A stretch of 58,150 bases of DNA from Muribaculaceae bacterium (lineage in GTDB: Bacteria > Bacteroidota > Bacteroidia > Bacteroidales > Muribaculaceae): positions 1 through 58,150 of the forward strand of contig JAGCUP010000194.1 in assembly GCA_017962765.1 (NCBI GenBank), given 5' to 3'. Positions 27,873 to 55,423 of the stretch are shown here, piece after piece. The stretch's first letter is position 1. Each line of letters starts with the position of its first letter. Position numbers and translations under genes: made by a program. A model generated the notes under the pieces. It did not search any database. It was not told where the DNA came from and worked only from the letters and a program-made list of their open reading frames with translations.

Positions 27873-28315
27873 AAGCACTAATTAATTTATTAATTTAAAA
27901 AATATCGTTTCGACTAAATATCTGTAACGCAACTCATTAACGACGTGAACCGCACCATTTGGCCAAGGGCCAATGATACTTAAAACACACGTTATCAGCT
28001 GCCAACCTTGTTTTAGGCGTCAACTTCATTCCAATCAAACGTTGTGCAAATTAAATACTTTTTTTTGGATTATTCTAATTTTCATAGCAAAATTTCACAT
28101 TTTTGTTAATAAAATCTGCCTTTTTGTGGTTTTTCACGCCATGCCACCCCCTGACAGGCCGGAACGGCGGCACAAAAACTCGGAGTCGCCCTGCATTTTT
28201 TGACGAAGAAAAAGTGTAACCTCAACCGCGCAACGCTATATTATCATGTGGAATTCTTGCAAAAGCGGGCGATTTTTGTTACTTTTGCCGCAAGATATTC
28301 AAAAAACCATCCACT
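27873..28315. other. Divergent intergenic region between susC and the sigma-factor gene
   Basis: These 443 AT-rich bases must contain the susC promoter and leader (not identified) and the sigma-gene promoter at 28257-28287. A 76-codon frame within it is hydrophobic but looks incidental. I see no RNA gene. Confidence 0.5.
28257..28287 (+). promoter_or_regulatory. Promoter of the sigma/anti-sigma/caspase/CHAT operon
   Basis: TTG at 28257-28259 lies 20 bases upstream of TACTTTTG at 28280-28287, matching the housekeeping Bacteroidota promoter. The start would be about 20 bases before ATG 28316. This implies basal expression by the main sigma factor rather than strict autoregulation. Confidence 0.6.
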
Positions 28316-28900
28316 ATGCAAGATTTTCACAGTATGGCAAGCGAGCTGTACGAATCACTTAAGGGACGCTTCATCAACTTCATCAAGTCGCGCTTTGCGC
28401 AACTTGACGACGACGACATTAACGACATCTACAACGATGCGTTCATGGCGGCCTACGACAACATCCAGGCCGGGCGTGTGGCCGACGACACCCATTGGGA
28501 CGCCTACATCATGCGCATCGGTTACAACCAGGCCACTACGGTCGTCAAGAAGAAGTCTATTTTCGTAAACCCGCAACGGCCCGATGACGATGACGACGAA
28601 GAACAGGCCGAACGACGGTGGGACAACACCATCTCGTTGGCTGACGCCCTCGGGAGCGAGGACGATGAACAGGAGAAGCAACAAAAAATCGACACTTTGT
28701 TGCAAGAGCTCGAGAAGCTCAAACCACCCTGCGCCACTATTTTGATTGACTACTACTTTGGGGAAATGTCATTGACCGAAATCATGGAAGCCCTGGGCTT
28801 CACATCGATGGCCAACCTAAAAGTAAAAAAGATGCGCTGCATGGACAGCGCGCGCAAACTCCTCAGCGTGGCATTCAAGCAACTCGCTATCGACTTTTGA
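28316..28900 (+). CDS. RNA polymerase sigma factor, ECF-like
   Basis: This 194-residue protein has a region 2-like N-terminus (FINFIKSRFAQLDDDDIND then AFMAAYDNI ... WDAYIMRIGYNQATT), an acidic linker (RPDDDDDEEQAERRW) and a region 4 helix-turn-helix (PPCATILIDYYFGEMSLTEI, LGFTSMANLKVKKMRCM). That two-region layout is typical of extracytoplasmic-function sigma factors, although the sequence is divergent. Start ATG 28316; an internal ATG at 28334 is also possible. The next gene encodes a membrane protein of anti-sigma type, followed by two exported cysteine proteases. Confidence 0.82.
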   Translation: MQDFHSMASELYESLKGRFINFIKSRFAQLDDDDINDIYNDAFMAAYDNIQAGRVADDTHWDAYIMRIGYNQATTVVKKKSIFVNPQRPDDDDDEEQAERRWDNTISLADALGSEDDEQEKQQKIDTLLQELEKLKPPCATILIDYYFGEMSLTEIMEALGFTSMANLKVKKMRCMDSARKLLSVAFKQLAIDF

Positions 28901-28939
28901 AATTAAACTTTTTATCAACTGAAAATTCTACATTTAATA

Positions 28940-29686
28940 ATGAAACAATATAGCGACCAACAGGCGATGATTGAGGACTACCTCGGTAACCAGATGACAC
29001 CCGACGAAAAGCTGGAACTCGAACGCATGGCCAACGATGACCCCGAGCTTGCTAAGCAAATCGCCGAGCAACGATTACTTATCGCCGCAATACAAGAACA
29101 AGGACGCAGGCAAAACGAGGCCTTCGCACAGCGAATGAAATCCATCCCGCGCGACGAAATGGAGAAATTCATCGCATCGAAACGAAGAAACAATCAAGCA
29201 CATCAGCCACAAGAAACCGAAAAGAAGGAAGAAAAGAAACAGAACGGTTTCTTCAACGGATGGGCCAAACGCACCATGCTCGCCGCAGCAGCCTTCCTTG
29301 GTGTCATCCTCTGCGTCAACCTATATACCCACATCCAGCATCAAAACTCCATCAACAGCCTCAGCGGAGACATATATGCCTACTCCCCCACCCCAAGTCC
29401 CGACGGTACGGCCATGCGTGGCGGCAGCGACCAAATGACGGAACTCAACGAAGCTGTCGATCTCGTGCAAGACGATAATAAAGATAAGCACGAGCAAGGC
29501 CTTAAGACCCTACAAACAATCTACCATAATCCCGACACCGAAGAAATCCGTCTCCACGCAGGCGAGTGCCTCGCCATCGCCCTCATCGTTGACGGCGAGA
29601 TTGATGACGCCGAGAAAATCGTGCAACAAATCGAGGGGGCAAAATACTACGACGACCTCAAGAAACTTATCAATGATTTAAAATGA
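28940..29686 (+). CDS. Single-pass membrane protein, probable anti-sigma factor
   Basis: This protein has 248 residues. The cytoplasmic N-terminus (about 1-110) is helical and charged and opens with IEDYLGNQMTPDEKLELERM, a pattern shared with anti-sigma N-terminal domains, then ELAKQIAEQRLLIAA. One membrane segment follows (about 113-132, MLAAAAFLGVILCVNLYTHI). The outer part has a linker and helical hairpins like TPR units (HEQGLKTLQTIYHNPDTEEI, RLHAGECLAIALIVDGEIDD). It follows the sigma gene by 39 bases. The anti-sigma role is inferred from order and topology. Confidence 0.65.
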   Translation: MKQYSDQQAMIEDYLGNQMTPDEKLELERMANDDPELAKQIAEQRLLIAAIQEQGRRQNEAFAQRMKSIPRDEMEKFIASKRRNNQAHQPQETEKKEEKKQNGFFNGWAKRTMLAAAAFLGVILCVNLYTHIQHQNSINSLSGDIYAYSPTPSPDGTAMRGGSDQMTELNEAVDLVQDDNKDKHEQGLKTLQTIYHNPDTEEIRLHAGECLAIALIVDGEIDDAEKIVQQIEGAKYYDDLKKLINDLK

Positions 29687-29693
29687 CCGCATC

Positions 29694-30587
29694 ATGAAAC
29701 GTATTCTCACTCTTATCGCATTTGCCATCATGCTGGGCATCGCCACACAAGCCACCAACCGTGCCCTGCTCGTGGCCATCGACAGCTATGCACCAGATAC
29801 TAAATGGAACGAAATCCACGCTACCAACGACGTGAAGCTCATCAAGCCCGAACTCGTCAAGCATGGATTTAAAGAGAACAATATCAAGGTGCTCGAAAAC
29901 AGAAATGCCAAGTTCGCTGCAATCGTGAATGCCATCAACACTCTCACAGATAGCTGCCAAAAGGGCGACATCGTTTATCTACACTTCTCGTGCCACGGGC
30001 AGCTTATGGATGACATCACCGGACGAGAAAGCGATGGCTTCGCCGAAGCGCTCGTCCCCTACGACGCATGCAAGGAACCATCCGACACCTACAAGGGGCA
30101 GAACCACCTCCTCGACAGCAAGCTCGCCAGCCTGCTCGAAGCGCTTCGCGTAAAGCTAGGCAAAAAGGGGCGTCTGCTGGTCGTTCTTGACGCATGTCAT
30201 AGCGATGGAGCCTATGTCGTGCGCGGCGGCAACTCGCCCTCGTTGCGCGGCACCGACAAGGTGTTCACACGCGGCAACGCCACCAACAAGTCGGCAAAGA
30301 AAGTGAAAACACGCCCATTCCCCACCGGCAAAGCCAAGGGACAAGCCCAACAAATCGTTATTTTCGCCTGCCAGAGCGGCCAGCAATGCGGCGAAATGTA
30401 TCGGCAGAAACCCGAGAGGATGAGTAATATCAACGGTATACTCTCCTTCTCGGTTTTCAAGGCCATCGAAAGCCAAAAAGCCGGAACTTTCGATATCAAA
30501 AAAATCGCAGACAAAACTGTGAGCGAATCTATAATACTGCAAAAGAAACAAAGGAAACAAACCATAGGATACAACCAACTCAACTAA
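29694..30587 (+). CDS. Exported caspase-like (C14/metacaspase) cysteine protease
   Basis: This 297-residue protein has a signal peptide (MKRILTLIAFAIMLGIATQA) followed immediately by the caspase core. The first strand is NRALLVAIDSY. The catalytic H101 lies in YLHFSCHGQ and the nucleophile C168 in LLVVLDACHSDGA, in the canonical order and spacing. The acidic DSDG-type pocket residues (RESDGFAEALVPYDA) are also present. It lies 7 bases after the anti-sigma-like gene. Candidate targets are the anti-sigma ectodomain or the CHAT protein downstream; this is inference. Peptidase C14 families include both death proteases and processing enzymes. Confidence 0.88.
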   Translation: MKRILTLIAFAIMLGIATQATNRALLVAIDSYAPDTKWNEIHATNDVKLIKPELVKHGFKENNIKVLENRNAKFAAIVNAINTLTDSCQKGDIVYLHFSCHGQLMDDITGRESDGFAEALVPYDACKEPSDTYKGQNHLLDSKLASLLEALRVKLGKKGRLLVVLDACHSDGAYVVRGGNSPSLRGTDKVFTRGNATNKSAKKVKTRPFPTGKAKGQAQQIVIFACQSGQQCGEMYRQKPERMSNINGILSFSVFKAIESQKAGTFDIKKIADKTVSESIILQKKQRKQTIGYNQLN

Positions 30588-30695
30588 CACACAGCTCCAC
30601 GACGGCTTAAAGTCCTAAGTAAGCTTAAGCATGCATCACCATGCTATAGGCAACTCATTCCCTACCCTTTATTCATCTTAAACTCTACCCACAAA

Positions 30696-33530
30696 ATGAA
30701 AAAACTAATTTATTTAATTCTCGCTGTTTCATGTTTAATGTCCACCGCCAGAGGAGAGGAACTTGCCACAAGTTATCCGGCGCTGGCCGACGACGCCTAC
30801 CAACGGATCGAAAGCCTTACCCAACTCGGGTGTTCTCAAATTACAGAATCGCCCTCAACCACCAAGGAATGCTATGACCAAGCCATAGAAATCTTCAAGT
30901 GGGTCCAACAGAATTGTCTTAACACCAGTAATGACAAACTCAAATATCACAAAAAACACTCTGAGACAAGGATTCTTTTTGGGATAGCTTACTGCAGTGT
31001 CAACGATTACCCGGAAGCATTCAATTGCTTTTATGATGATGATGTGATTCTCTATATTTGTCATAACGACCAATCTCTCTTGTATTATGTTTCCTGGGTT
31101 TTGGGGAAATGCTTAGCCATGGGGAGTGGAAAGCCGGCACCAGGACACACAAGAGAAACAGGTCTCATCTATTTAAGAGAGGCAAGAGATGATGCCCTCT
31201 CGCGTGTTTGGCAGGATCCTGGCGTTTGGCTTCATGCAGCTAACATAGCAGGTGACCTTGTCACTGCCGACTATATTTTGAAAGTCAACGAAAAGGACAA
31301 AAATATATTTGAAGATGATGTGAAGACATTTAATTCCATATTAGAAGAAATTGATTATTCTGAACTCACCCCAGAAGAAATACCAACCATGGCCAATGTT
31401 GACATCCAACGTATCAGGACCCAAATAGATTATAATCCCACACATGCCCAATCACATCTTGACGAATTTATTCAAGACTGCGAACGATTAGAATCATTTT
31501 CGTTTTCTCAAACAAACCCTTTTATGAATGCTCACAAAACAACATATCTAGACACGAAACTTGCTTGTCTACAAGCCGACTTGCATAGCTTACGGTATGT
31601 TCAAAAACTCAATGCTCATGATTACGCACAGGCCATGAGCGACATCAAAAGCGCCATAACATATTATCATAAGGCCATTCTATCATCAAAGGCAGGCAAA
31701 AAGCACAACATTGAAAGAGCCACGGCCGAGACCTATGCCAATTGTATTCGCGCACTATCGCTCGTCCACCCCACTATTTATATGCGAAATGAAACTGACT
31801 TCCAAAATATATACGAAGATCTAAACAATTCATTTGAGCCCATAAAAGAATTTTTAATTCCTAACATTGTCGTATCACAAAATGCCTTCCGCGAAGAATA
31901 TTGGTTTGACGCCCAAGACATCTTTACTGAATCAATGTCGCGCCTAAGCCATCTCGTTTATTTTGGCCACGAGAACAAAGGTATCCACAAATTGACATAC
32001 GATGCGGTACTCTTTAGCAAAGGTTTGTTGTTGAAAATAGGCCAAGAGGTTAATCATGCCGTTGAACAAAGCAACGAACCGAAACTTATCGAGATGATGA
32101 AACACCGCAACGAACTGGAGAAGAAGAATAACTTATCGGCCGAAGAACTTTACGAAATCGATGAACTTAACAAGGAACTCTTGTGGAATGTGGCAAGTAA
32201 CCAAACTCTGCTCAGAAAGTTTGATGTACGATGGGAACAGGTGAGAGACGCACTGGGCGAAAACGACGTAGCTATCGAATTCCTGCACTTCCCGGCTTTC
32301 CAAGGCAACGACACCATGATGAAAATGAGCTGGGCGGCACTAAAGCTGAAGAAAAGTTTTAAGTCACCCGAATTTATCATCCTGGGCGACCTCGATAGTC
32401 AACTGAATATTGGTGACGAAGAAGAATCAAAACAGGACAAACTGTGGTACGACTCCCAGATAATTGACACCGAGATTTGGAAGCCGTTGCTCAAAGAAGA
32501 GATATCCGAGGGCGGGAAGTACCGTGTGTTCTTTGCCGCAGACGGGCCGCTACACAATATCGCCATCGAGAACTCGCCCGCCATGGCCCATAGTGAAAAT
32601 TTCGAGTTGCACCGCGTGGCCTCGACACGCGAACTCGTTGACGGACAGAGGCCACTCAAACTCACTGACGCGGTCCTCTTCGGTAACATCGCCTACGATG
32701 CTCCCGGTGACAGCGTGCTCGCCGCTAATCGTGATTTGCGCCAACCACAACCGAGCGAGTCCTCGATATTAAGCAATGAAATTTTCGCCAGCATCAATGA
32801 CATGAAAACTCGTGGAGGGCGTGGAAGCATCTATGATTATCTTAGCGGTACAAAAGCAGAAATTGCCCATGTCGAGGCCGCACTTAATAGTGTAGGCACA
32901 GCGTGCCGCACCTACGACCAGGCCCGCGCAAGTGAGGAGGCCTTCAAAAGCCTCGACGGGCACTCGCCCACCATCATCCACTTGGCCACCCACGGTTACT
33001 ATGTCCCGCCCGAAAAGGTGGAAAGCGAGCGCGAAGACATGAAACTCCCGTTCCTGGAGATAGGTCTGGGACGCAGTACCGCCGAGGACGTAGCGCTCAC
33101 CCACAGCTTCCTCACCATGGCCGGCAGCCGCGACATGGAAGAGTACAACCGACGCGAGGGAGTGGTGCATCTTGAGGACGGACACCTCACGGCGCATGAG
33201 ATTTCGAGAATGGATCTGCACGACACGCGCCTCGTCGTGCTCAGTGCCTGCGAGAGCGCCCTGGGCGAGGTCACCAACGATGGCGTACTGGGGCTTCAAC
33301 GAGGCTTCAAGCGTGCTGGAGCCGGCACCATCGTCATGACCGTGCGCAAGGTGGGCGACGCTCCCGCCAAGGACTTCATGGTCACCTTCTACGACGAACT
33401 CGCTGAGCGGCTTAAGCAAAATCCCAATGACCCGAACGCCCTGCGCAACGCCTTCACCACCGCTCGAAACCGCGTACGCCATGACTATCCCAATAGCCTT
33501 GACTGGGCCTACTTCATTATGCTCGATTGA
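30696..33530 (+). CDS. Exported TPR-like/CHAT-domain protease
   Basis: This 944-residue protein has signal peptide MKKLIYLILAVSCLMSTARG. About 560 residues of helical, TPR-like sequence follow (for example AYQRIESLTQLG, NAHDYAQAMSDIKSAITYYH). The C-terminal CHAT domain (about 650-944) has the catalytic pair H766 (IIHLATHGYY) and C852 (LVVLSACESALGEV) and ends in the conserved LDWAYFIMLD. CHAT is a caspase-related fold normally activated through its helical partner region. The 5' two thirds are strikingly AT-rich compared with the CHAT part. The stop lies 3 bases from the convergent lysA stop, with no terminator between. Confidence 0.88.
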   Translation: MKKLIYLILAVSCLMSTARGEELATSYPALADDAYQRIESLTQLGCSQITESPSTTKECYDQAIEIFKWVQQNCLNTSNDKLKYHKKHSETRILFGIAYCSVNDYPEAFNCFYDDDVILYICHNDQSLLYYVSWVLGKCLAMGSGKPAPGHTRETGLIYLREARDDALSRVWQDPGVWLHAANIAGDLVTADYILKVNEKDKNIFEDDVKTFNSILEEIDYSELTPEEIPTMANVDIQRIRTQIDYNPTHAQSHLDEFIQDCERLESFSFSQTNPFMNAHKTTYLDTKLACLQADLHSLRYVQKLNAHDYAQAMSDIKSAITYYHKAILSSKAGKKHNIERATAETYANCIRALSLVHPTIYMRNETDFQNIYEDLNNSFEPIKEFLIPNIVVSQNAFREEYWFDAQDIFTESMSRLSHLVYFGHENKGIHKLTYDAVLFSKGLLLKIGQEVNHAVEQSNEPKLIEMMKHRNELEKKNNLSAEELYEIDELNKELLWNVASNQTLLRKFDVRWEQVRDALGENDVAIEFLHFPAFQGNDTMMKMSWAALKLKKSFKSPEFIILGDLDSQLNIGDEEESKQDKLWYDSQIIDTEIWKPLLKEEISEGGKYRVFFAADGPLHNIAIENSPAMAHSENFELHRVASTRELVDGQRPLKLTDAVLFGNIAYDAPGDSVLAANRDLRQPQPSESSILSNEIFASINDMKTRGGRGSIYDYLSGTKAEIAHVEAALNSVGTACRTYDQARASEEAFKSLDGHSPTIIHLATHGYYVPPEKVESEREDMKLPFLEIGLGRSTAEDVALTHSFLTMAGSRDMEEYNRREGVVHLEDGHLTAHEISRMDLHDTRLVVLSACESALGEVTNDGVLGLQRGFKRAGAGTIVMTVRKVGDAPAKDFMVTFYDELAERLKQNPNDPNALRNAFTTARNRVRHDYPNSLDWAYFIMLD

Positions 33531-49431: not shown

Positions 49432-49493
49432 TTCCTAATTGACTAAATTCCTAATTAAATCAGTTCCTAATTCCTCATTCCTAATTCCTAATT
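49431..49493. repeat. Degenerate 7-base tandem repeat (TTCCTAA)
   Basis: ATTCCTAATT recurs at 49431-49440, 49447-49456, 49477-49486 and 49484-49493, with variants at 49463-49472 and 49470-49479. From 49464 the array is phased every 7 bases. It separates convergent genes, begins at the last base of the namZ stop and covers the stop codon (49488-49490) of the dockerin gene. Confidence 0.7.
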
Positions 49494-51872
49494 AAGAAGT
49501 AGGTTGTAGAGGGCGGTCACGTCGGCGCCGCTTACCACGCCGTCGCCGTTGACGTCGGCATCGCCGCCGGCCTCGGTCCCGTCGAGCAGCACGTTGTAAA
49601 GTGAGGTCACGTCGGCACCGCTCACCACACCATCACCGTTCACATCACCCTTCAATTGGGTTTCGTGCTCCTCGTAGCTCAACGGCATGAACTGCAATGT
49701 GCTACCATAGATGCCAGTCACGCCATAAATGTCGTAAGCCTTGGTGAGATCATCGGGTGCGGTCCACTGAAAGCGGTCGTAAATCTTTACGCTTTCCTCA
49801 CCCACCACGATGTTACCATCACTAATCGTAGCGCCGCTAATCACGGCATAGCGGAAGACATTATCAGCCGTAACTTGAGCCGGAGTCAACACGAGGGGAA
49901 CTAGCTCAACGACAGAAGTGCTGGCCACGAAACCGTCGCCGTTGACAAGCTCGGGCTGGCTATTATAGAGAGAATAGGAACCCGAGAAGCCGGCGGGTAT
50001 CACATCGCCCGAGTCGTATGCCTGGCCGATACCTCCACTCCGATAAATCAACAAACCGCAATCACTGCTTTCGTCCTGGACAAAGGTGTATTCCTTGCTT
50101 GTGGTTTGGGCAATCACGGTCACTGGATTAGCGAACACCACGGCGGTTGATGGTTTAGTTTCAAGAAACTCAGCGATATTCGCCACAGTGGGCATGGCCA
50201 CAAAATTCATGGTCGCCACGCCGCTCTGCACGGTGTCAAGGATAGCGATTGCCTTGACGGTAGTGGTCTCGGTGAGTGTGAAGGGCGCTTCGTAGGGTGT
50301 ACTTCCGGCAGTGGGGTCGCTACCGTCAAGCGTGTAATAAATGGCAGCACCCTCAGTGGCAACGGTGATTGTCACCTCGGTAGAACCCGCAAACGGCGTG
50401 ACGCCACTGATGACGGGTGTTGCGACGCCTTGCTGGGGACGGCGCACGGTGACATCAATCTTGGTGAAACGCGCCTGGTTGCTTGCGGTGAAGGTCACAT
50501 CGGCGGTTTTACCCACCCATTCGCCCACCTTCGACTGGGCGGTCGTGGTATATGTTCCCTCACTTGGAGAAATATTGTCGGGACCGTAATTTGCACCTTT
50601 ATTTGCAGTACTGGTAAAGGTAATCTGCACGATTTCGCCCAGCTCGGTGCTAAACTCGATGGATTTGCCTTTATATACACGATAATTGTCGGTGTTGCCA
50701 AGCGGTGTGCTGTGGCCAGTGAAGGTGATGCCGTCCTTTGTGATCACGTCTTCGTAAGTGCCTTGGCTTTTTTGCGAGCCAACCTCGACGCCCGCGGTGA
50801 AGGTTACCGTGGTCAGTTCGCCCTCGGTCGATGATTTGGCCTTAAAGGTGACCTCCACCTCGGCCCGATAGGCGGGCATGACGAATGTGTAAGTGCCGTC
50901 GCCATTGTCGGTCACATCGGTAGTGTTCAATAAGATATCTTTATAAACGACGACCGAGCCCACTTCATACCCCTCAGCCGGTGTGACCGTGAAAGTCACC
51001 TCATCGCCTTCTTTCGCTTGCTGTGGTCCTTCCACTGTGCCAAGCTCATCATCGTAATTGTAGTACACATCGTAGAGCTTGTTAGCGTCATGGATATATA
51101 CGCAGACATTTTTCTCGGTATTTGCATTGTCATATCCGGCCCCATAGTTGGCATAGGAGTCAAAAAATATCAAGTCTTGACTCTCATAGTCATCGGTCGA
51201 AATGGTAATCACGTCACCGGCGTTGGCGGTAGTATGGGGCGTACCGATAACGTTCTTACCATATCTATATCCACATTCTTTCGCACCGGTGGGGAATGTG
51301 ATCACCACGGAGGTACCACGTTCCACGGTGTCATAGTTGCTAAGTTCCACCCCGTCGGCGGTGATGGTGGGGCCAGGTATTACGTTGGGGTCGGCCTCTT
51401 CGTCATAGACCACAGTGATACTATTGATGTAGAAATACATCTGACAATTAAAACGTATAACCACCTCTCCTGTCTTATAGCCATTCAAAACGATGTCTTG
51501 CGGGTCGTAGTAACTTAAGTATTGCGTTGTCGATGGGTCGATATAGGATGTGCCGCCCACGCTCACCTGCAAGGTGGTGTTGGGGTACCCGCTATCAACT
51601 CTCCCATTGACAATGACACGCTTCACCACCCCGGGGAATGCCGTGGTGGAGAAAGTGTACTCACTAATGTTCATACCAATGCGCAAGCCTTTTCCTTCCA
51701 CCCATTTGAGGTCTGTGGCGGCCGTGGTGTTCCACGCAACGCCACTCAGCGTCACCTCACCCCCGGCAAGAGTGAGGTCGCCATCGGCAAAGCTATGGGT
51801 ATAAGTGGTTTCGGCAGCCCATGCATTGACAGCCATGAGGATGATTAACAGAAATGCGTAAACTTTTTTCAT
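49488..51872 (-). CDS. Secreted multidomain protein with chitobiase-like, OB-like and dockerin-like modules
   Basis: This 794-residue protein has signal peptide MKKVYAFLLIILMAVNAWA. Order: an N-terminal beta domain (about 20-155), a Bacterial_repeat-like unit (DELGTVEGPQQAKEGDEVTF, about 280-345) and a further sandwich (about 355-470). A chitobiase C-terminal-like module follows (about 475-555; AAIYYTLDGSDPTAGSTPYE), then a DUF5689/OB-like region (about 560-720; VANIAEFLETKPSTAVVFAN, YTFVQDESSDCGLLIY). Two dockerin-like repeats end it (GDVNGDGVVSGADVTSLYNV, DVNGDGVVSGADVTALYN). It shares the tail with the proteins at 15469 and 17349. No catalytic domain is recognised. Confidence 0.8.
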   Translation of the reverse strand: MKKVYAFLLIILMAVNAWAAETTYTHSFADGDLTLAGGEVTLSGVAWNTTAATDLKWVEGKGLRIGMNISEYTFSTTAFPGVVKRVIVNGRVDSGYPNTTLQVSVGGTSYIDPSTTQYLSYYDPQDIVLNGYKTGEVVIRFNCQMYFYINSITVVYDEEADPNVIPGPTITADGVELSNYDTVERGTSVVITFPTGAKECGYRYGKNVIGTPHTTANAGDVITISTDDYESQDLIFFDSYANYGAGYDNANTEKNVCVYIHDANKLYDVYYNYDDELGTVEGPQQAKEGDEVTFTVTPAEGYEVGSVVVYKDILLNTTDVTDNGDGTYTFVMPAYRAEVEVTFKAKSSTEGELTTVTFTAGVEVGSQKSQGTYEDVITKDGITFTGHSTPLGNTDNYRVYKGKSIEFSTELGEIVQITFTSTANKGANYGPDNISPSEGTYTTTAQSKVGEWVGKTADVTFTASNQARFTKIDVTVRRPQQGVATPVISGVTPFAGSTEVTITVATEGAAIYYTLDGSDPTAGSTPYEAPFTLTETTTVKAIAILDTVQSGVATMNFVAMPTVANIAEFLETKPSTAVVFANPVTVIAQTTSKEYTFVQDESSDCGLLIYRSGGIGQAYDSGDVIPAGFSGSYSLYNSQPELVNGDGFVASTSVVELVPLVLTPAQVTADNVFRYAVISGATISDGNIVVGEESVKIYDRFQWTAPDDLTKAYDIYGVTGIYGSTLQFMPLSYEEHETQLKGDVNGDGVVSGADVTSLYNVLLDGTEAGGDADVNGDGVVSGADVTALYNLLLN

Positions 51873-54082: not shown

Positions 54083-55423
54083 TCAATGCTCTTTGTATTG
54101 CTTGATGTGTTTAAAGCGGCACCACGAGGTGTCAGCACGCATGGCCTCCACATCAGGAACATAGAGGGTGACTTGCTCGTAATGATAAGGCTCGAAAACC
54201 GAGTCAATCACCGTTTGCCATCCACCATTCCCTATTCCCGGCGGCATACCAATATGTGGCATTGATATCTCTTTGAGATTTGTGCAGCCCTTAAAAGCGT
54301 GTTTTTGAATACCGAACATAGGGGCTTCAATCGTCAAGCTCTCCAGTTTTGAGAGATTGCGAAAACAGCCGAAGCCCAATTCTTCCACGTTCCACGTAAT
54401 GCGGTCACGAATCACAGAACTCTTCACAACAAGGTGCCGCATTTCCTCTCCGTCATATTGCACCGAGACGGAGTTGGTGCTTGCCCCATTCCAATTGGTG
54501 TAGACAAAGTTGTCACCCCATTTAAACTGAAAAATCCCCGACGGATTCTCGAGCTTCTGCCGGCCATAGTACCCCAGGCCCAACAGAATGCCTGCGACTA
54601 CCAGCGAAAGGCCTATTGCAAACGAAGCCGTTTGAATGAGGCGCCGACGTTTTTTGCCGGCTTCGATGGCCGTCACAAGTTCGCCCACCGTTTGGTAACG
54701 GTCGCTGATGGGTTTCATGCAGCTTTTAACCACGTTTTTATATTCCCTTCCCAAACCCATGTCCTGAAGGATAATGCCCAGGCTATATATGTCATTACGA
54801 GAGTCGGCCATTGTGGAGTTCAGTTGCTCGGGCGCCACATAGCGCTTTGTGCCGGCTGGATTCTTGAAAATCGCGAACTCGTCGTTGTCGGCGAGGCCAA
54901 AATCGATAATTTTCACGTTGTCGCCGCTGCGGGTAACCATAATATTTTCAGGCTTCAAGTCACGGTGCACCACGCCCTGGCGATGCACATAGCTCACCGC
55001 TTCGAGCAGTTCCATCGCCACCTTCTTGCGCAGGCTCAGGCTCGGCCCTGTGGCCAGCCATTCATTGAGCGGAACGCCATCGACCCACTCTGTCACGATA
55101 AACACGTCCATGCCCACCTCGTCGTCGGCCTTGCCGCGCTCAATGCCGTAGGTCTGAACGATTCCCGGGTGCGACAGGCGCATCATTATCTCAAACTCCT
55201 TACGTAGGCGTTGCGCGTAAGCCACGTCGCCTGCATGCTCAGCCTTCAGTCCTTTCAACACGTGCCACCGGGCGTGGCGCATCGCTTTCACCAGCCGGCA
55301 GTAGCCGAGCGAAGGCAGTTCGCTGACATGGGTGAACTGCGCCTCAATACCCTGATAGTCGTCGGGGACGATTCCCGACGCTCCACGCTGGTTCTCCACC
55401 ATCATTTCGTTGTCGTCGCTCAT
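54083..55423 (-). CDS. Membrane Ser/Thr protein kinase with LRR_5-like ectodomain
   Basis: This protein has 446 residues. The kinase domain (about 25-255) has the invariant Lys in WHVLKGLK, catalytic D155 in VVHRDLKPENIMV, IIDFGLADN and the activation/APE region AGTKRYVAPEQL. The Gly-rich loop is degenerate (ELPSLGYCRLVKAM). One membrane segment follows (about 262-282, ASFAIGLSLVVAGILLGLGY). The roughly 155-residue outer domain contains BspA-type LRR_5-like units (LGFGCFRNLSKLESLTIEAP, IQKHAFKGCTNLKEISMPH). It looks like a receptor kinase with an external recognition domain. Its start overlaps the preceding gene by 4 bases. Confidence 0.85.
   Translation of the reverse strand: MSDDNEMMVENQRGASGIVPDDYQGIEAQFTHVSELPSLGYCRLVKAMRHARWHVLKGLKAEHAGDVAYAQRLRKEFEIMMRLSHPGIVQTYGIERGKADDEVGMDVFIVTEWVDGVPLNEWLATGPSLSLRKKVAMELLEAVSYVHRQGVVHRDLKPENIMVTRSGDNVKIIDFGLADNDEFAIFKNPAGTKRYVAPEQLNSTMADSRNDIYSLGIILQDMGLGREYKNVVKSCMKPISDRYQTVGELVTAIEAGKKRRRLIQTASFAIGLSLVVAGILLGLGYYGRQKLENPSGIFQFKWGDNFVYTNWNGASTNSVSVQYDGEEMRHLVVKSSVIRDRITWNVEELGFGCFRNLSKLESLTIEAPMFGIQKHAFKGCTNLKEISMPHIGMPPGIGNGGWQTVIDSVFEPYHYEQVTLYVPDVEAMRADTSWCRFKHIKQYKEH

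Follow-up and report, generated by a model that had tools for sequence, protein, structure and literature searches.

A Muribaculaceae operon in which an export-signalled caspase and a TPR-CHAT protease may open a membrane anti-sigma factor at an Arg-Gly/Ser linker

In Myxococcus xanthus, DdvA joins an anti-sigma factor and a tetratricopeptide repeat (TPR)-CHAT protease in one chain, as the titles of PDB entries 8rot and 8rw5 indicate (Bernal-Bernal et al. 2024). Its partner sigma factor, DdvS, is described as becoming active once an unknown signal has inactivated DdvA (PMC4374960) and as controlling an antiphage island (PMC12288465). In Craspase, the TPR-CHAT protease Csx29 cuts the sigma inhibitor Csx30 and thereby relieves the inhibition of CASP-sigma (PMC10028731). 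For systems of the RseA/DegS/RseP type, a review gives the identified site-1 proteases as serine enzymes, namely DegS, DegP, SipS, SipT, and Prc (PMC7593790). Caspase genes have also been placed near sigma genes: EACC2-caspase neighbourhoods are reported to hold an extracytoplasmic function (ECF) sigma factor and a TPR protein (PMC8195603), and sigma factors are named among the operon neighbours of metacaspases (PMC3501461). Here, we analysed a four-gene operon at positions 28,316 to 33,530 of a 58,150-nucleotide stretch of Muribaculaceae DNA (contig JAGCUP010000194.1; the whole stretch is called the window). The operon encodes a sigma factor, a predicted membrane anti-sigma factor, a caspase, and a TPR-CHAT protein. 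We propose, at a probability of about 60%, that the exported caspase and TPR-CHAT protein would act as Arg-specific site-1 proteases, cutting the periplasmic linker of the anti-sigma factor and releasing the sigma factor.

Operon layout and predicted proteins

The operon consists of four plus-strand open reading frames (ORFs) with successive gaps of 39, 7, and 108 bp, laid out as an earlier annotation made from the letters alone (the sequence-only reading) had placed them. That reading also had the right positions for both catalytic dyads, H101/C168 and H766/C852. R[GS] below stands for Arg followed by Gly or Ser.

28316..28900, + strand: ECF-type sigma factor, 194 residues (TIGR02937 match; relatives adjoin caspases)
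28940..29686, + strand: predicted anti-sigma factor, 248 residues, with an N domain, one membrane helix, and a TPR-like helical ectodomain (alignment A2 of 29 relatives; weak NF052375 match)
29279..29335, + strand: anti-sigma membrane helix, residues 114-132 (hydropathy)
29417..29422, + strand: anti-sigma R160-G161, candidate cleavage site in the predicted periplasmic linker (R[GS] kept across linkers)
29694..30587, + strand: single-domain metacaspase-like protease, 297 residues, export-like N-terminus (Peptidase_C14; structure model)
29829..29831, + strand: caspase D46, predicted S1-pocket acid at the TbMCA2 Asp95 position (69/69 invariant; aligns with the metacaspase Asn-Asp)
29994..29996, + strand: caspase catalytic H101 (69/69 invariant)
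30189..30197, + strand: caspase D166-A-C168, predicted S1 acid and catalytic Cys (69/69 invariant)
30246..30251, + strand: caspase R185-G186, 17 residues past C168, candidate self-processing site or structural element (69/69 invariant)
30696..33530, + strand: TPR-CHAT protease, 944 residues, export-like N-terminus (CHAT match; model near Csx29, separase, and DdvA)
32811..32825, + strand: CHAT linker R706-G-G-R709-G ahead of the catalytic half, candidate processing site (end of the low-confidence stretch 687-709)
32991..32993, + strand: CHAT catalytic H766 (48/48 invariant)
33249..33251, + strand: CHAT catalytic C852 (48/48 invariant)

The first ORF matches the NCBIfam superfamily model TIGR02937 above its cut-off (E 9e-14), with a weak Pfam Sigma70_r2 match (0.0061) below cut-off. 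For the second, the anti-sigma model NF052375 matched weakly, below its cut-off (0.0015), and one segment is strongly hydrophobic. The pairing of an ECF sigma gene with one for a single-pass N-domain protein recurs in relatives, and the 248-residue protein is likely a sigma-binding anti-sigma factor. Its relatives in alignment A2 share 13-67% identity with it.

The third ORF matches Peptidase_C14 (E 1.9e-13), and its H101, C168, D46, and D166 are kept in every one of the 69 aligned caspases, giving the C14B dyad together with an acidic S1 pocket. The structure model (mean predicted local distance difference test score, pLDDT, 88.2) has the metacaspase fold, its best PDB matches being GSU0716, metacaspases 9 and 4, and MALT1. 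C14B metacaspases are described as Arg/Lys-specific, with acidic S1-pocket residues such as TbMCA2 Asp95 (PMC4357240). Since both acids marking these enzymes are kept, the caspase is predicted to cut after Arg or Lys.

The fourth ORF matches CHAT (E 9.4e-37). Its model lies nearest to Csx29, separase, and DdvA, the Csx29 match spanning model residues 80-944, and contains a TPR-like helical array, caspase-type halves, and the His-Cys dyad, the N-terminal helical part being modelled at low confidence. Comparing the CHAT and caspase profiles, we obtained a probability of 38% (E 3e-4). The CHAT linker carries Arg-Gly in 30 of the 48 aligned proteins (shuffle mean 8.1). Two more CHAT proteins are encoded in the window's own genome (L083 2593-5493 and L084 8542-12732); the stretches examined around them gave neither a sigma nor a caspase match.

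The signal peptides that the sequence-only reading had assigned to both proteases correspond to export-like N-termini, which we called by a hydropathy rule alone. Among the listed relatives, the rule finds such N-termini for the caspase in 113 of 120 and for CHAT in 69 of 92, from which we infer that both proteases would reach the periplasm. Some linked caspases (L075 6646-7752, L076 426-1505) have a lipoprotein-like N-terminus rather than a plain signal peptide.

Conservation of the gene set and of the linker motif

Two gene orders recur in relatives. The order sigma, anti-sigma, caspase, CHAT is found in the window, L070, L072, L074, L075, L133, L137, L138, and others; the order caspase, sigma, anti-sigma, CHAT is found in L073 (with two intervening genes), L077, L089, L094, and L132. 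L071 has its CHAT gene in convergent orientation. A first count placed a sigma or CHAT gene within 6 kb of 38 of the 44 caspases of at most 420 residues (E<1e-20; sigma 27, CHAT 34, both 23), and of 10 of the 33 longer ones. This first sample left out most phylum matches, and we therefore fetched 20 further stretches. They added 17 single-domain caspases without an export-like N-terminus, none of which was linked, bringing the totals to 38/61 single-domain caspases linked vs 12/36 longer ones. Linkage as a trait of all such single-domain caspases was thereby rejected, and we replaced the first count by a split on the N-terminus. Caspases with an export-like N-terminus were linked within 6 kb to sigma or CHAT in 33 of 37 cases (20 to both), compared to 5 of 24 without one (Fisher 8e-8). 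Conserved linkage in relatives, which the sequence-only reading had proposed to look for, was found in this way, and the linkage of the gene set is far from chance. The added control narrows it to exported caspases and left our estimate for the mechanism unchanged.

The exceptions to the split are few. Among the five linked caspases scored as non-exported, those of L074 and L133 share >93% identity with the L072 caspase, which has an export-like segment, so the hydropathy rule missed their segments. Of the four unlinked exported caspases, two (L080, L135) lie at contig ends, and two (L120, L121) adjoin A2-type anti-sigmas whose upstream ORFs are of sigma length without any sigma match. The sample comprised all 24 places from one search, all but 2 of the 46 places at E<=1e-23 from another (27 weaker ones were left out), and 29 of the 48 further phylum-search places; it was not blind, since seven linked caspases, that of the window among them, were already part of the search alignment A1. 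A group of ~275-residue caspases (L284-L300) starts directly at the domain and is unlinked to sigma or CHAT.

Using single-protein queries on 61 genomes, including the window's own, we detected CHAT in 22, caspase in 13, sigma-like proteins in 48, and anti-sigma in 5. A2 relatives at E<=0.01 occur in 250 of the 295 genomes of the order. CHAT (E<=1e-10) is present in 87 of the 90 order genomes with an anti-sigma at E<=1e-12, against 157/295 overall (Fisher 8e-27, uncorrected for phylogeny), and it stands among the matches listed within 10 kb of at least 31 of the 121 anti-sigmas at E<=1e-12. Within the genus, CHAT occurs in 17/17 genomes with A2 at E<=1e-30 vs 22/86 overall. It appears that the order has a broader sigma/anti-sigma/CHAT system and that the caspase was layered onto it.

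The anti-sigmas in A2 are divergent, and Arg-Gly-Gly is the sole run of majority residues from the membrane helix to the ectodomain. We scanned residues 9-55 past the helix after removing relatives >70% identical. R[GS] was present in 21 of the 29 linkers of caspase-linked anti-sigmas (shuffle mean 6.3) and in all 25 linkers from 3 to 15 kb stretches without a visible caspase (shuffle mean 5.1), mostly 19-35 residues past the helix; the reversed dipeptides were not enriched. Specificity of the Arg motif for caspase-linked anti-sigmas was rejected on these 25 relatives, all of which carry Arg-Ser or Arg-Gly. The residue after Arg/Lys does differ between the sets, Gly:Ser being 21:2 in the caspase-linked set vs 8:17 in the no-caspase-seen set (hand tally; Fisher 2.7e-5). 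One control set had no anti-sigma-like neighbour at 16 of 20 loci. R[GS] occurred in 1/3 NF052375-derived controls outside the family and in 2/7 other ORFs with a single membrane helix, too few to use.

Two natural losses were found. In G008 (83% complete), we saw an anti-sigma remnant only, next to the phosphate acetyltransferase and acetate kinase (pta-ackA) genes, where the relatives L072, L074, and L133 carry the full four-gene set. The helix and ectodomain remain in this remnant; the N domain and the Arg stretch are gone, and no sigma, caspase, or CHAT gene adjoins it. An orphan relative of the L078 anti-sigma, on a 4 kb contig of G874, is likewise without the N domain and the Lys/Arg-Gly stretch. 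The CHAT search of the genus genomes detected none in G008 or G874.

Several variants of these proteins were also noted. A gene in L119 (5255-9867) for a caspase-containing protein of 1056 residues converges on a sigma/anti-sigma pair, the linker there having Arg-Gly-Gly. A lipoprotein-like gene of 241 residues adjoining caspase and CHAT (L099 5197-5922) has an Arg-Gly-Ser stretch and no Pfam match, and is a possible further substrate. Single ORFs in L281 (5778-6764) and L282 (6348-7328) fuse a sigma-like part, a membrane helix, and an anti-sigma ectodomain. In L283 (5567-6250), from a genome that has CHAT, an ectodomain relative stands as an orphan; it starts like a lipoprotein and contains two Arg-Gly sites.

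Proposed mechanism and rival explanations

We picture the mechanism in four steps. From its layout, the N domain of the anti-sigma factor would hold the sigma factor at the inner membrane. An envelope signal, perhaps sensed by the TPR array of the CHAT protein, would activate CHAT and/or the caspase. The active enzyme would then cut after the conserved linker Arg, here between R160 and G161, as the conservation and the S1 pocket of the caspase suggest. Finally, as in RseA-type systems, a site-2 protease would cut in the membrane and free the sigma factor. The sequence-only reading had the proteases working in the periplasm, where they might cleave the ectodomain of the anti-sigma factor, and this part stands as the best reading because of the linkage, the export-like N-termini, the intact dyads, and the Arg-Gly/Ser linker motif. 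Its further idea that the proteases activate one another we hold less firmly; it draws on R185-G186 of the caspase and on Arg-Gly in the linker ahead of the CHAT catalytic half.

A number of observations weigh against site-1 cleavage by these proteases. CHAT stood among the displayed neighbours at 7 of 20 anti-sigma loci without a visible caspase, and all 13 others keep R[GS], so that cleavage there would need a protease acting in trans or a different enzyme. The motif is also present in G223 (81% complete), where no CHAT was detected at E<=1e-10. Six of the 29 caspase-linked linkers are without [RK][GS], four of these having Arg followed by Ala, Asn, or Asp. Genus relatives without R[GS] in residues 9-55 come from 10 CHAT-negative genomes but also from 3 CHAT-positive ones: a motif-free paralogue group with a Lys/Pro-rich linker occurs in genomes with CHAT (G866, G025) and without, and G010 has CHAT and a sigma-helix-ectodomain fusion lacking the motif. 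Several genomes of the no-caspase-seen set have C14 proteins elsewhere; L176, which has Gly, is from G247, with 2 strong C14 matches. Linked loci supplied the seeds for both A1 and A2, two of the 29 members of the caspase-linked set (P0002, P0003) are database relatives whose neighbours were not seen, and the statistics ignore phylogeny throughout. The invariant R185-G186 of the caspase may have a structural role, the model confidence there being fair.

Performing a promoter scan, we found both housekeeping boxes with at most one mismatch upstream of 9 of the 12 sigma-first operons, the chance rate not being computed, and the housekeeping consensus upstream of 0/7 CHAT genes. TAnnTTTG is the Bacteroidota housekeeping -7 consensus. 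The element in the window is:

28280..28287, + strand: TACTTTTG, housekeeping-type Bacteroidota -7 element (TAnnTTTG), 36 bp 5′ of the sigma ATG (promoter scan)

The scan gave no sigma-specific promoter, and autoregulation of the sigma factor is thus not supported. Palindrome arms surround the -7 element upstream of the sigma ATG in L075, L138, L140, and L071, possibly an operator. The arms are 13 bp in L140 and L071, where 0/200 and 1/200 shuffles were as good (3/200 in L075, 9/200 in L138); the palindrome was not clear in L137, L070, L130, or the window (28246-28318), with 18 to 103 of 200 shuffles as good. Scanning the window against Rfam gave no match at gathering scores.

The proteases could instead be outputs, some other protease releasing the sigma factor, which would then drive the exported caspase and CHAT against envelope or foreign targets. 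The sigma gene does come first in all 12 sigma-first operons examined, and the Arg motif kept at 13/20 loci without CHAT in view also speaks for this alternative. With housekeeping-type promoters, however, the proteases could be expressed without the sigma factor, and the genome-wide co-occurrence of CHAT and anti-sigma, the tracking of caspase linkage by Gly or Ser in the motif, and the two joint losses of motif and proteases all argue against it; we regard it as unlikely. About as improbable, in our judgement, is an explanation in which the Arg-Gly/Ser motif serves anti-sigma structure or trafficking rather than cleavage, or else is the target of an unrelated protease, and the linkage reflects shared regulation only. 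The same 13 loci and the motif in G223 fit this explanation. It is opposed by the joint losses and by the dependence of the second residue on the caspase, and also by the setting of the motif, which lies in a variable linker without any other majority motif and puts Arg before a small residue.

The death circuit envisaged by the sequence-only reading found no support here. In such a defence or death module, infection would trigger killing by caspase and CHAT, as the DdvS-controlled island and Craspase suggest. The fold relatives DdvA and Csx29 do belong to defence-linked systems. The first ORF also weakly matches the type III-E CRISPR sigma model NF041236 (4.4e-6, far below the model cut-off), and PADLOC, run on 14 window proteins, matched the caspase to a generic model, found TPR once and weakly (0.0041), and picked up a kinase 20 kb from the operon. 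The neighbouring genes that could be identified, around the operon and at the pta-ackA site, are, however, SusC/SusD-type or metabolic, and the proteases carry export-like signals. Searching with the caspase, we found no match in 50,697 phage records; its plasmid matches (53 records, all <60% identity) are in Pseudomonadota and Nostoc only, none in Bacteroidota. We consider a defence role the least probable of these alternatives, with only a slim chance of being right. The PADLOC kinase (54083-55423, - strand) is a 446-residue protein that strongly matches PD-T4-6 and further PADLOC kinase models, likely a Ser/Thr kinase; a 794-residue protein with a C-terminal Dockerin_1 (2.1e-9) is encoded at 49488-51872 on the - strand.

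Returning to site-1 cleavage, a broader form of the proposal holds that in Bacteroidota exported TPR-CHAT proteases, joined in many loci by a metacaspase, open membrane anti-sigmas at Arg-Gly/Arg-Ser, the post-Arg residue co-evolving with the protease present. To this we give an even chance.

Comparison with described systems

The sequence-only reading had taken type III-E CRISPR as its precedent; we keep it and add the anti-sigma DdvA as the nearest one. In DdvA, TPR-CHAT lies within the anti-sigma factor, whereas here, in the window and in the neighbourhoods, CHAT is a separate ORF. The active site of DdvA is reported to be incomplete. Here, by contrast, the CHAT dyad is full, a metacaspase is added, and the ectodomain of the anti-sigma factor is short and helical and follows an Arg-Gly/Ser linker. 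In Craspase, Csx29 is activated by target RNA on Cas7-11; here, a membrane location is predicted for the inhibitor, and both proteases bear export-like signals. No cas gene was seen among the named operon neighbours, and no Cas7-11 or CRISPR model among the 14 scanned window proteins, the rest of the genome not having been searched; within this scope, the locus differs from the Craspase loci, which hold both Cas7-11 and CRISPR. With RseA/DegS/RseP, the operon shares a membrane anti-sigma factor whose periplasmic stretch would be the target of a site-1 protease, but the candidate enzymes here are clan CD cysteine proteases. With the EACC2 caspases, it shares caspase genes near ECF sigma genes, although 'anti-sigma' and 'periplasm' do not occur in the text of that paper. 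Among literature titles and abstract openings, we found no paper on an exported caspase or CHAT protease cutting a membrane anti-sigma factor.

What appears new here is the placing of two separate, export-signalled, apparently active proteases beside a membrane anti-sigma factor. The single residue R160 is the point on which the idea can be tested. If it is true, bacterial caspase and CHAT proteases would gain a role in ordinary envelope signalling, and the site-1 proteases of anti-sigma factors would come to include cysteine enzymes. A single logic would then cover DdvA, Craspase, and the separase-like cleavage of bonds following Arg, and a large share of the order would carry a system that answers to DdvA, but split and protease-active, and to Craspase, but at the envelope.

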